A DNA stretch of 64,000 nt, taken from contig JAUSOQ010000062.1 in the NCBI GenBank assembly GCA_030655755.1, positions 1-64,000 of the forward strand, read 5' to 3'. The notes under the pieces are model-generated. The model saw only the letters and a list, made by a program, of their open reading frames with translations, was not told the DNA's origin and made no database searches. Position numbers and translations under genes: made by a program. The stretch comes from Coriobacteriia bacterium. GTDB lineage: Bacteria; Actinomycetota; Coriobacteriia; Anaerosomatales; Anaerosomataceae. Shown here piece after piece: positions 44,409 through 64,000 of the stretch; position 1 is the first letter of the stretch; the number at the start of each line of letters is the position of its first letter.

Positions 44409-44757
44409 TGGTGGAGGCGCGGAGAATCGAACTCCGGTCCACAATAGACCCCTAGGAAGCATCTCCAGGCTCAGTCACCGCTTGGGTTTCGGTCGGGGTG
44501 ACGCGCCGTGACCGGCGTACCCTTCCCTAGATGGATCACATTCCCTGATCGCACACCATCATCAGCGATCCCGGTAGTCCCCTGAGTGACGTCGGGGCCG
44601 GTGACGGGGACGCTCACCGGGCGACGTCGCTACTTAATTAAGCAGCGAGGGCGTAATTATTGTCGACGTTTAAGCGTCGGTACCCCTGTTTAACGAGGCG
44701 AGGAGACCTCGGCCTGCTTCTTCCCTCAGACCTATCGTGTCGAATCCAGTCGCCCCC
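44409..44757 (-). ncRNA. ssrA: tmRNA
   Basis: 349 nt. The 5' end GGGGGCG-ACTGGATTCGAC and the encoded 3' end GTTCGATTCTCCGCGCCTCCACCA form the tRNA-like domain; all seven acceptor positions pair with one G-U. The tag frame ends ...N-N-Y-A-L-A-A-stop (AATAATTACGCCCTCGCTGCT then TAA). In that frame there is no Ala codon at the usual resume position; the preceding codons read CGC TTA AAC GTC GAC. smpB lies 100 bp upstream on the same strand. Confidence 0.96.
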
Positions 44758-58060: not shown

Positions 58061-60817
<2,757 letters not shown>

Positions 60818-60957
60818 GGATGATCGGTCTCCTGAAAGTGATTCTGAGTGTGTGCGAAGCAAGCCTGATGATAGCACAGGGGGTGCCATTCCCTGCGTGT
60901 GACCGAGGTCCGTGAGACTCCCGTCACCTGAACGATCCGGCATCTTCTACGACAAGC

Positions 60958-60992
60958 GTCGGCCCCCGAAGCACAAGTGCCCGGGGGCCGAC
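60958..60992 (-). terminator. Strong GC-rich hairpin upstream of secA
   Basis: GTCGGCCCCCG and CGGGGGCCGAC form a perfect 11-bp stem with a 13-nt loop. A long U tract is missing on the minus strand. It closes the candidate structured RNA and lies ~140 bp before the secA start, so it may terminate the RNA or attenuate readthrough into secA. Confidence 0.65.
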
Positions 60993-60994
60993 TG

Positions 60995-61160
60995 TCGGTA
61001 GATCTAGGACCCAATTGGCTCGACTAACGACACCGCTCTCTTGGTGCCCCTCAGGAGTCTCCCTCTCCTCACCTGTCGAACGCCGTCGTTGCCGCTGTGC
61101 TCGCGAACGAGAGCCCCTCGAACCCGCCTACCGAACCACGCTGAACTCATCGGCTCAGCT
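60995..61160 (-). ncRNA. Candidate structured non-coding RNA upstream of secA
   Basis: Minus-strand helices seen: a 5' hairpin GCTGA/TCAGC (61159-61155 with 61144-61140); long-range TCGGTAG/CTACCGA (61134-61128 with 61001-60995); nested GGTTCGA/TCGAGCC (61124-61118 with 61023-61017, one G-U); nested AACGAC/GTCGTT (61090-61085 with 61031-61026); innermost GGTG-AGGAG/CTCCT...CACC (61073-61065 with 61057-61043). A CTCG-TTCG-CGAG tetraloop hairpin sits at 61111-61100. GCTCTC/GAGAGC (61114-61109 with 61040-61035) would be an alternative or pseudoknot. The single wobble favours this strand. The family is not identified from sequence; raiA-motif RNA is a possibility. Confidence 0.5.
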
Positions 61161-61166
61161 GATGCG

Positions 61167-61172
61167 ATTCTA
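61167..61172 (-). promoter_or_regulatory. Putative -10 box of the candidate RNA
   Basis: TAGAAT on the minus strand, 7 bp before the predicted 5' hairpin. A good -35 at the proper distance is not seen. Confidence 0.3.
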
Positions 61173-61219
61173 GCGGGTCGACCTGAACAACCACTTAACC
61201 CTGGATTAACAGGTTCCGA

Positions 61220-64000
61220 CTACTTCTGCGGCGGCTCTTCCATGGCAAGGACTTCCTCGTAGAGACGACGGGTCTCAACGCTTGGATCGAGACCAAGATC
61301 CTCTGAAAGGTACGTCCGACATGCAATGAACATGTCGACGGCGCCGCTACGCTGTCCGATGTCGATCTGGTAGCGCATGGCGGCCTGATAGAGATCCTCA
61401 CGCCAGGAGTCATGTTCCAGCCCCGCTCTGATGACCACGAGCGCTTGCTCTGCATCCCCGGCATCGTGACACATCCTGCCGGCACGCAGCATCGCATCAC
61501 CGAACTGGACACGATACCGCTCCCTGAGGGGTCGGAACCAATCGTCGTAAATCTCGGATGGCAATAGATCGGAGCGATAGATCTCTCTGAGACGACGAAT
61601 AGCAGCGAGCGCGGCGGCCAGATCACCTGATGCCTCCGCTTCACCAAGCTCAGCTGCAGCCTGGTCAAAATCGTCAAGATCTGAGCGCACTAAAGGCCGC
61701 ACCACCCGACAGATGCCACCCACATGCTCGACGTACGGACACGACGACACCTTCCCCGCAGACAACAAAGCCCGCTTCATCGCAGACCAGATGACATAGA
61801 AGTTGTTCTTCGCCCGCTCTTCATCCATATCGGGCCATAGGTGCTCCAGCAACAGATCGCGCGGAACGTCCCTACCCTGTCGCGTCACGAGCATCATGAA
61901 CAGCAGCCGCGCCTTACGCTTCTTCCAGGCGCGATCTGGCACGACACCATCGGGAGTCATGACTTCCAGCCCGCCGAACAAGCGCACATTCAGGAGTGGT
62001 TCGCCGAGGACTGAAGCCTCAAGCGTCGCTGCATCCTTCTCGCCGAGGAGTCTCACCGCAAGACGCTTCCATTCAGCCTCATCCAAGACATCGCGAGCCA
62101 GTGGCAGAGCGGCCCGAGCGTACTCGGGCATGATCATCCGCAACATGTGCACCGGCAACTGATCAACACCTGCCGCAGCAGCCACCAGCCCGAGAAGTCC
62201 CGGGAAGGCGCGGACGTACATCGCGGTCATCCAGTTGGCGTTTTCCGAGCGTATGTAGTCGACATCGCTCAGCAGGGTGGCCCGAGCAGCCTTGCCGTCA
62301 CCAGTTTGCCGACAGACTTCTGCCAATACCAAGTGACATTTAAGGATATGCTGTCTGGCACCGAGTTTCTCAACCAGGGAGAGAGCATGTTCAGCATGCT
62401 GCACCGCCGAAGAGACGTCTCCAACAGCAAGTAGGCTTGCCGCCAGCTCGGCCTCCGCCCATCCCTGATTCACCGCAAAACCACCTTTGGCAGCAAAGTA
62501 CCCATACGATCTTTCAGACTCCGCCAATGACTCATCGAATCGTCCTGCAGACCTGAGAATCACACTCAGATAGTTGCGCTCTATTTCTGCGTAATACACA
62601 TCGCCAGATTGCACGCATGCCTCAAGGCAGCAACGCATCATGTCCACCGAGCCTCGCGTGTCTCCCAGACCAGCAAGTACCGCAGCCTGAGTGCCCCTGA
62701 TGGTCTCGGCAGGGAGGACAAGTCCCGTCTTCCTGCATCTATCAGATGCATCCCGGGCTATCTCAAGCGCTCTCTCCAAGCGACCTGTCTCGCAGATCAA
62801 GGCTGCATAGTTCCCGCGTGCCTGGATCGCGAAGCTGAGTGGCACATCTGGGTCTCTGACAAGATCAGCTATTATGTCAGCGCTGGCCTGATAATCTCCC
62901 AGAGCCAGCGCATACGCACCAGCACAGACCATGGAGATTGAACATCTCGCTTGCTGCGACAAACCCGCGAGACCAACAAGCTCCCAAGCCTCGGCCGTGT
63001 AACGCATAGCCTCCTGGACGTTGCCCAAATATGCATGAGCTGTGGCGAGATACCCCAACGCCAGACACCGAAGACTCGGGTCGTCCTGTAGTAAGCGTGA
63101 CTCACTGATATCACCCAGACAGTCTGTGACCTTGGCATACATTCCCAGGTCAACATAGACCCTTGCCATGAGGAGGTCGGCTTCAGTTTCAATACGCCCT
63201 CCGTCTGCAGCCAATCCGCTGGCCTGACGCGCAATGCCTGCAAGCCTCAGGGCCTCGTCAAAATCCAGCATGTACCTATGCGCCGTGGCCTTCACCAAGA
63301 GCAGGCGCGAACTACAGACTAGGCGACTCGACTGGATCCGCTCAAAGAGCTCCATAACGAGAGCACAATGCCCCTCATTGATCAGGTCAAGACCAAGACG
63401 AGCAAGACGTTGCTCGATCTCCTCGATCCTGTTCATATACAGAAGCGACCGGAAGAGACGTTCCAATTGATGGCTGGATTCCAGGAAATCCAGCACGCGG
63501 CAGATAACGTCCTCTGCATCAAAACCCGACCACAATGTGCAGTCCGCTCCACAGAAGACCTCAACCGCTATCTCATGTACGAAGAAAGTCCGACCAGCAT
63601 GCTCTCGTCCAAGGCGCACCAAAGGAATGCACTGAGCCACCCTGGCGAGCCTCTCGTAGTCTCCCTCGCAACCAGCGAGATACGACAACTCCTGACAGTA
63701 TCCCCCGGCCATCATCGCGGCGACCAACAAGACCCGTCTTTCCCCTGCATCAAGATGCGTCTCAGCCAGGTAAAGCAGGTATGAGGAGAGATCGATCGGC
63801 AGCACCACAGAATCGGCTCGAGACAACTCGATCAGACCAGTGTGACGTGCGATCACACAGAATAGGGCGACTTGCCCTCCGCTCGCTTGCACGAGCTGCC
63901 CATGCTCTTCCTCGGTGATTGCCGTGCCCACCAACAAGCTCCCTAGCTCACGAGATTCTCCTGCTTCGAGCAGCAACTCACAGGGTTCCACGCGCCAGAA
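61220..64000 (-). CDS. BTAD/SARP-type transcriptional regulator, 5' truncated
   Basis: The frame is open to the right edge; about 926 codons are visible. Most is a helical TPR-like array (e.g. CLALGYLATAHAYLGNVQEA). After ~residue 665 come a winged helix (VRLFGGLEVMTPDGVVPD, then KARLLFMMLVTRQGRDVPRD) and a BTAD domain (DLDDFDQAAAELGEAEASGD to YLSEDLGLDPSVETRRLYEE). In SARP proteins the DNA-binding part is usually N-terminal; here it is at the C-terminus, as in some large MalT-like regulators. A P-loop ATPase domain may lie beyond the edge. Target genes unknown; the secA region is downstream. Confidence 0.87.
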   Translation of the reverse strand, partial: FWRVEPCELLLEAGESRELGSLLVGTAITEEEHGQLVQASGGQVALFCVIARHTGLIELSRADSVVLPIDLSSYLLYLAETHLDAGERRVLLVAAMMAGGYCQELSYLAGCEGDYERLARVAQCIPLVRLGREHAGRTFFVHEIAVEVFCGADCTLWSGFDAEDVICRVLDFLESSHQLERLFRSLLYMNRIEEIEQRLARLGLDLINEGHCALVMELFERIQSSRLVCSSRLLLVKATAHRYMLDFDEALRLAGIARQASGLAADGGRIETEADLLMARVYVDLGMYAKVTDCLGDISESRLLQDDPSLRCLALGYLATAHAYLGNVQEAMRYTAEAWELVGLAGLSQQARCSISMVCAGAYALALGDYQASADIIADLVRDPDVPLSFAIQARGNYAALICETGRLERALEIARDASDRCRKTGLVLPAETIRGTQAAVLAGLGDTRGSVDMMRCCLEACVQSGDVYYAEIERNYLSVILRSAGRFDESLAESERSYGYFAAKGGFAVNQGWAEAELAASLLAVGDVSSAVQHAEHALSLVEKLGARQHILKCHLVLAEVCRQTGDGKAARATLLSDVDYIRSENANWMTAMYVRAFPGLLGLVAAAAGVDQLPVHMLRMIMPEYARAALPLARDVLDEAEWKRLAVRLLGEKDAATLEASVLGEPLLNVRLFGGLEVMTPDGVVPDRAWKKRKARLLFMMLVTRQGRDVPRDLLLEHLWPDMDEERAKNNFYVIWSAMKRALLSAGKVSSCPYVEHVGGICRVVRPLVRSDLDDFDQAAAELGEAEASGDLAAALAAIRRLREIYRSDLLPSEIYDDWFRPLRERYRVQFGDAMLRAGRMCHDAGDAEQALVVIRAGLEHDSWREDLYQAAMRYQIDIGQRSGAVDMFIACRTYLSEDLGLDPSVETRRLYEEVLAMEEPPQK

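Follow-up and report, generated by a model that had tools for sequence, protein, structure and literature searches.

A candidate structured RNA gene between a BTAD regulator gene and secA in the order Anaerosomatales

The intergenic region between secA and a gene for a BTAD (SARP-LAL-type) regulator, on the minus strand of the 64,000-nucleotide stretch of Coriobacteriia DNA analysed here (the window), contains a conserved and covarying RNA structure, preceded by direct repeats of the kind bound by SARP proteins. The comparisons make it probable that the region is a stand-alone non-coding RNA (ncRNA) gene of one order, outside Rfam, which is switched on by the adjacent regulator.

Layout of the locus and fold of the RNA

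The gap between the two genes was 400 bases long. It contained on the minus strand, like all window features given below, the nested complementary segments listed in a preliminary description at 60958–61172, including the terminal GC hairpin (60958–60992) and the TAGAAT box ahead (61167–61172). The regulator gene (61220–64000, stop codon 61220–61222) was in a frame that continues past the window to 64597, and secA was an open reading frame at 58061–60817 with its ATG at 60817, whose orthologues adjoin the RNA in relatives. The TAGAAT box is the putative −10 box of the RNA, and transcription would be expected to start near 61160. The 5′ region of the RNA, which differed among lineages in an alignment of upstream regions, was predicted to fold here into a hairpin of its own sequence (61141–61156, GCUGA...UUCAGC type).

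The outer helix P0 closed the region 60995–61134 by seven base pairs between UCGGUAG (61128–61134) and CUACCGA (60995–61001). The conserved core (61007–61125, 88.8 bits with covariance model R1) was composed of P1 (GGUUC/GGGCU type), P2, the hairpin P3, the arm P4/P5, which is variable, and P6, in that order. P3 was the hairpin CUCG-UUCG-CGAG (61100–61111), in which all four pairs showed changes on both sides. The long arm (61021–61094) was formed by P4 (61085–61094 with 61021–61031) and P5 (61078–61083 with 61034–61038), and was capped by the purine-rich hairpin P6 (61043–61073; GGUG-AGGAG-A-GGGAGA-CUCCU-GAGGGG-CACC). Since P2 and P3, and likewise P4 and P2, adjoin with no unpaired base between them, a three-way junction is predicted, with a long arm that ends in a near-invariant P6.

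The minimum free energy of 60950–61180 was −109.3 kcal/mol on the minus strand (z = −3.30; 0 of 200 shuffles as low), compared with z = −2.42 on the plus strand (4 of 200 shuffles as low). The folding energy alone was moderately unusual and would not settle that the RNA is structured; the comparative evidence was stronger. In a plain MAFFT alignment of 30 copies (A1), 92.8% of pair cells could form, against 82.2% in shuffled alignments and 36–49% with the partners slid, and changes on both sides were seen in 19 of 28 pairs (shuffled mean 9.9; 0 of 500 shuffles as high). These counts are not a product of fitting, because the alignment was made without a model, although the structure itself was written by inspection of the same sequences. 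In an alignment fitted to model R1 (A2; 51 rows, 49 distinct), 94.4% of pair cells could form, against 37–52% with the partners slid, and 22 of 28 pairs changed on both sides; each of the five helices counted showed covariation. Helix-preserving compensatory changes were therefore present in both alignments, which supports the structured minus-strand ncRNA of about 200 nt, starting from the TAGAAT box, that had been proposed in the preliminary description; its authors had named a lack of conservation and covariation in relatives as grounds for giving it up, and both were found.

The arm lengths differed among lineages. The two sides of the arm from the same locus paired with a mean of −22.4 kcal/mol, compared with −16.4 kcal/mol for mismatched arms, in the 44 of 50 loci where the core pattern was located; the other six were omitted. 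Their own arms were beyond the mismatched median in 39 of the 44, and beyond the best 5% of mismatched arms in only 11. For P0, a duplex-energy test was weak (5 of 50 loci surpassed the best 5% of cross pairs), and a test of contiguous Watson–Crick runs served better: 17 of 50 loci had a run of at least five near P1, compared with 6.4% of mismatched pairs. Across the 51 rows, most positions of P6 (GGUG-AGGAG-A(n)-GGGAGA-CUCCU-GAGGGG-CACC) were invariant or almost so. The first inner pair of P6 was A-U in 38, U-A in four, and G-C in two of the 49 distinct rows, and was unpaired in five, and these exchanges support the AGGAG/CUCCU stem.

With the gap as BLASTN query, matches were obtained in 46 of 61 genomes, its own included; these were mostly centred on about 31 minus-strand bases. 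With model R1, the RNA was found in 56 of the 69 genomes of the order, including 48 of the 51 of good quality; the 13 genomes with no match to R1 included three of good quality. Over the class, 56 of 296 genomes had the RNA, all within the one order (0 of 227 outside), and model R2 recovered it in 4 of 396 genomes sampled across the phylum, all four in the family of the host; these searches over more than 40 genomes used stricter filters and may miss weak matches. An exact scan of genome contigs with a 19-base core gave 34 places, 27 of which were the RNA by R2; the other seven lay in unrelated taxa and were not the RNA by that model. The taxa named in the scan were Coriobacteriia, Anaerosomatales, and other actinobacterial metagenome-assembled genomes, and the core had no match in viral contigs. 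In the genomes sampled, the RNA was thus limited to one order, which appears to be Anaerosomatales and consists of underground bacteria, and almost every genome in which it matched carried a single copy. Anaerosoma tenue and Parvivirga hydrogeniphila have been described as pure cultures of this order (PMC9686372).

Operator and adjacent regulator

Upstream of the −10 box, three direct repeats with a spacing of 11 bp formed the putative operator (61183–61210): GTTAAT (61205–61210), GTTAAG (61194–61199), and GTTCAG (61183–61188), the last of them 10 nt ahead of the box. When the sequences upstream of the RNA were compared with themselves, free of any motif, 32 of 50 loci had 7-mers repeated at a lag of 11 (against an expectation of 3.1), and none of the other lags from 7 to 23 exceeded six loci. 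With the motif G(G/T)T(A/T/C)AG, which was taken from the same sequences on which it was scored, 43 of the 50 RNA loci had two repeats at lag 11, the last exactly 10 nt ahead of TANNNT, compared with 0 of 45 secA promoter regions. Neighbouring settings gave 11 loci (lag 12, gap 10), 10 loci (lag 10, gap 11), eight loci (lag 10, gap 10), and six loci (lag 12, gap 9), and are attributed to the same repeats being matched out of register. A simple −10 score upstream of the RNA was no better than that of shuffled sequences (mean fraction 0.35; 3 of 50 loci below 0.1), and the promoter was recognisable only through the 11-bp repeats. It had no recognisable −35 box; in its place stood SARP-type direct repeats, at least two in 11-bp units near the −10 box, with the consensus G(G/T)TAAG.

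SARP proteins recognise direct repeats of heptamers, which in the classical case are arranged in 11-bp units near −35, and their BTAD is thought to recruit RNA polymerase (PMC10972967, PMC5930380). The heptamers of PimR are of the GGCAAG type, which is close to the GGTAAG found here. The regulator frame encoded 1125 residues (61220–64597) with AAA/NB-ARC-like, TPR, and BTAD regions, the combination of the SARP-LAL type, although the ATPase matches were below the cut-off (AAA_22, E 1.1e-4, and NB-ARC). The Pfam matches to BTAD (E 1.1e-15) and TPR_12 (E 1.1e-8) were above the cut-off. Trans_reg_C was weak (E 0.0073; 16.8 bits, under the cut-off of 26.2), and EmbR (2fez) aligned across the SARP region (E 3.2e-6), which lies at the C-terminus of the protein. 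Because the 11-bp repeats match the layout of a SARP site, the adjacent BTAD protein is the natural candidate for the activator, and it probably switches the RNA on.

The main alternative is a separate ncRNA whose operator serves a PhoB/OmpR-type response regulator, or another SARP paralogue, and not the adjacent protein. Similar 11-bp direct repeats near −35 are the binding sites of OmpR/PhoB-type proteins. In Streptomyces, AfsR and PhoP have a site in common (PMC5930380, PMC10972967). Against this reading, 44 of the 50 copies of the RNA (from 49 genomes) had the BTAD gene upstream on their own strand, and in one genome (G056) it sits between two copies; moreover, the best of the repeats listed at 30 pstS-type loci of 16 genomes, with start codons unmapped, scored no higher than 6 of 12 with the motif. 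A reader other than the adjacent regulator is therefore considered unlikely, with a small but real chance of being correct.

In G056 (locus L119), the two RNA copies, at 97918–98044 and 101413–101539 of contig C44, flank the BTAD gene, and each has its own operator. Some genomes have an extra gene between the BTAD gene and the RNA; in loci L045 and L047 (G028 and G039) this gene is on the opposite strand, and by eye the C-terminus of its product resembles a cell-wall-binding repeat.

The exact operator pattern gave 20 matches in the 69 genomes, compared with none for a reversed control, and 14 of the 20 were directly upstream of the RNA. In the genome of the window, the only operator match at up to one mismatch was that of the RNA. 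The six exact sites away from the RNA (L133, L134, L139, L143, L148, and L151) each preceded a gene whose product had, as judged by eye, an N-terminus like a signal peptide or a membrane segment, and may represent a possible regulon of exported proteins.

Boundary with secA and relation to known RNAs

The GC hairpin (60958–60992), with a weak U tract behind it, is the likely terminator of the RNA. By simple folding, 49 of 50 loci had a hairpin after the RNA; it was not always terminator-like, and often had few U residues behind it. Between hairpin and secA, a separate promoter-like site with an extended −10 (TGTGC-TATCAT, 60868–60878; TATCAT at 60868–60873) was located. Such a site was present in 45 of 45 loci, 50–84 nt ahead of the start codon (mean shuffled fraction 0.003), and read TGTGCTAGAAT in most loci and TGTGCTATCAT here. 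Since secA has a conserved promoter-like site of its own, it need not depend on the transcript of the RNA. The start of secA was 106–338 nt downstream of the RNA in 45 of 50 copies; of the other five, three had no secA match in the stretch examined, one had secA at 1.3 kb (L019), and one was the first of the two copies in G056.

These positions bear on a cis-acting secA leader, a switch or attenuator that would decide termination at the hairpin before secA. Wherever secA was seen, the RNA lay just upstream of it and shared its strand, and a terminator-like hairpin lies between them, as such a leader would have it. However, the secA −10 past the hairpin argues against transcription of secA solely by way of the element, and the predicted fold accommodates both the hairpin and the RNA. 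Moreover, secA is 1.3 kb off in L019, and one copy in G056 instead lies ahead of the BTAD gene. A leader is thus improbable, and from its hairpin end and the downstream promoter the RNA is predicted to be a gene separate from secA.

A small AfsS-like effector protein encoded in the region, with the structure incidental, would have the position beside a SARP-type regulator that afsS has next to afsR. This is very improbable: the P6 loop was longer by 1 to 4 bases on its 5′ side in some lineages, and indels of this size inside the most conserved part argue against coding, as do the variable arm lengths and the covariation in all five helices. The statement in the preliminary description that no open reading frame explains the gap stands, the overlapping frames of 67 and 73 residues being mechanical.

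The resemblance to the raiA motif RNA (RF03072) suggested there, from size and location in the same hpf–secA neighbourhood, did not survive, since RF03072 had no match in the gap at E ≤ 10 and matched at full length elsewhere in the same genome, so that even a divergent raiA motif RNA has virtually no chance of being correct. In Rfam 15, no family matched the gap at the gathering score, only three sub-threshold matches were returned at E ≤ 10, and 20 loci of relatives gave a single sub-threshold match at E ≤ 0.5. The proposed Rfam comparison thus yielded neither raiA nor another family, and the structured RNA was upheld by covariation instead. The raiA motif RNA of this genome was located at G000:C8:73569–73805, 12.4 kb away and outside the window (162.6 bits; membership threshold 101.3 bits). 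This raiA motif RNA (L002, L055) was about 4 kb from an open frame that by eye resembles an hpf/raiA gene.

6S RNA, SRP RNA, and tmRNA were also ruled out, each being located elsewhere in the genome; the tmRNA gene was at 44409–44757 of the window (minus strand, 161.1 bits). A CsrA-sponge RNA was rejected since CsrA (PF02599) had no match in the host genome; the same search recovered CsrA in E. coli, B. subtilis, and T. maritima. The RNA is undescribed in the titles and abstract openings of literature on secA-linked or Coriobacteriia ncRNAs, a body with few subscription journals and no preprints, and a term search for secA and Coriobacter in three ncRNA-discovery papers (PMC2864571, PMC11109978, PMC6429828) gave no mention. 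By these comparisons, the RNA beside secA is a predicted ncRNA family that is absent from Rfam and previously uncatalogued.

Proposed mode of action and comparison with known systems

In the favoured reading of a stand-alone gene, the adjacent regulator, with its ATPase, TPR, and BTAD regions and a putative winged helix, would bind the repeats and recruit RNA polymerase, and the RNA would be transcribed and would end at the GC hairpin, ahead of an independently transcribed secA. The three-way junction would then present P6 on the long variable arm, where P6 may be bound by a protein or paired with another RNA, and the RNA would act in trans within the program of the regulator. A binding partner for P6 is suggested by its fixed sequence, in contrast to P1–P4 and the arm, which varied but kept their pairing. 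Pairing of the P6 loops with raiA, tmRNA, 6S, or SRP RNA was no better than with shuffled targets, the lowest shuffled-target fraction being 0.10 in one tmRNA comparison. The P6 loops can pair about six bases with a generic anti-Shine–Dalgarno sequence, as can any Shine–Dalgarno-like purine run.

A more speculative extension, which we regard as possible though doubtful, is an activator–ncRNA pair in which the main target of the SARP-LAL-type regulator, and the only recognisable one in its own genome, is the structured RNA, and in which translation or export of envelope proteins is tuned via P6. The RNA would there replace a small effector protein such as that of AfsR–afsS. The likeness to AfsR–afsS and PimR–pimM of Streptomyces lies in a SARP regulator that also has ATPase and TPR regions, in heptameric direct repeats with 11-bp units, and in a target near the regulator gene. 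The present locus differs in that the target is an RNA and not a protein gene, the SARP region is C-terminal, and the −10 is fixed at 10 nt past the last repeat hexamer.

Like the raiA motif RNA (ModT), the RNA is structured, about 200 nt long, intergenic, and in the same genome neighbourhood, and in neither case has a gene been assigned under its control; however, the family model had no match here, and the true raiA motif RNA is a separate locus. The raiA RNA occurs in both Bacillota and Actinomycetota (PMC11706538), whereas the present RNA occurs in one order. ROOL, GOLLD, and OLE are likewise ornate and conserved, with no known partner (PMC12286853), whereas the RNA described here is smaller, limited to one order, nearly always single-copy, and linked to a regulator gene. 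With CsrB-type CsrA sponges it shares GGA in and near the P6 loops; it differs from them in having no repeated GGA hairpins and in a host genome that lacks CsrA.

No precedent for an ncRNA under SARP control was found in the titles and abstract openings of the literature searched. Single-copy structured ncRNAs that are order-wide and have a near-invariant core are uncommon, and often have a basic role in the cell. Because SARP-type repeats stand in the promoter and the regulator gene is next door, the RNA, the operator, and the activator form a small testable unit; if the proposal is true, it would place an ncRNA under SARP control.
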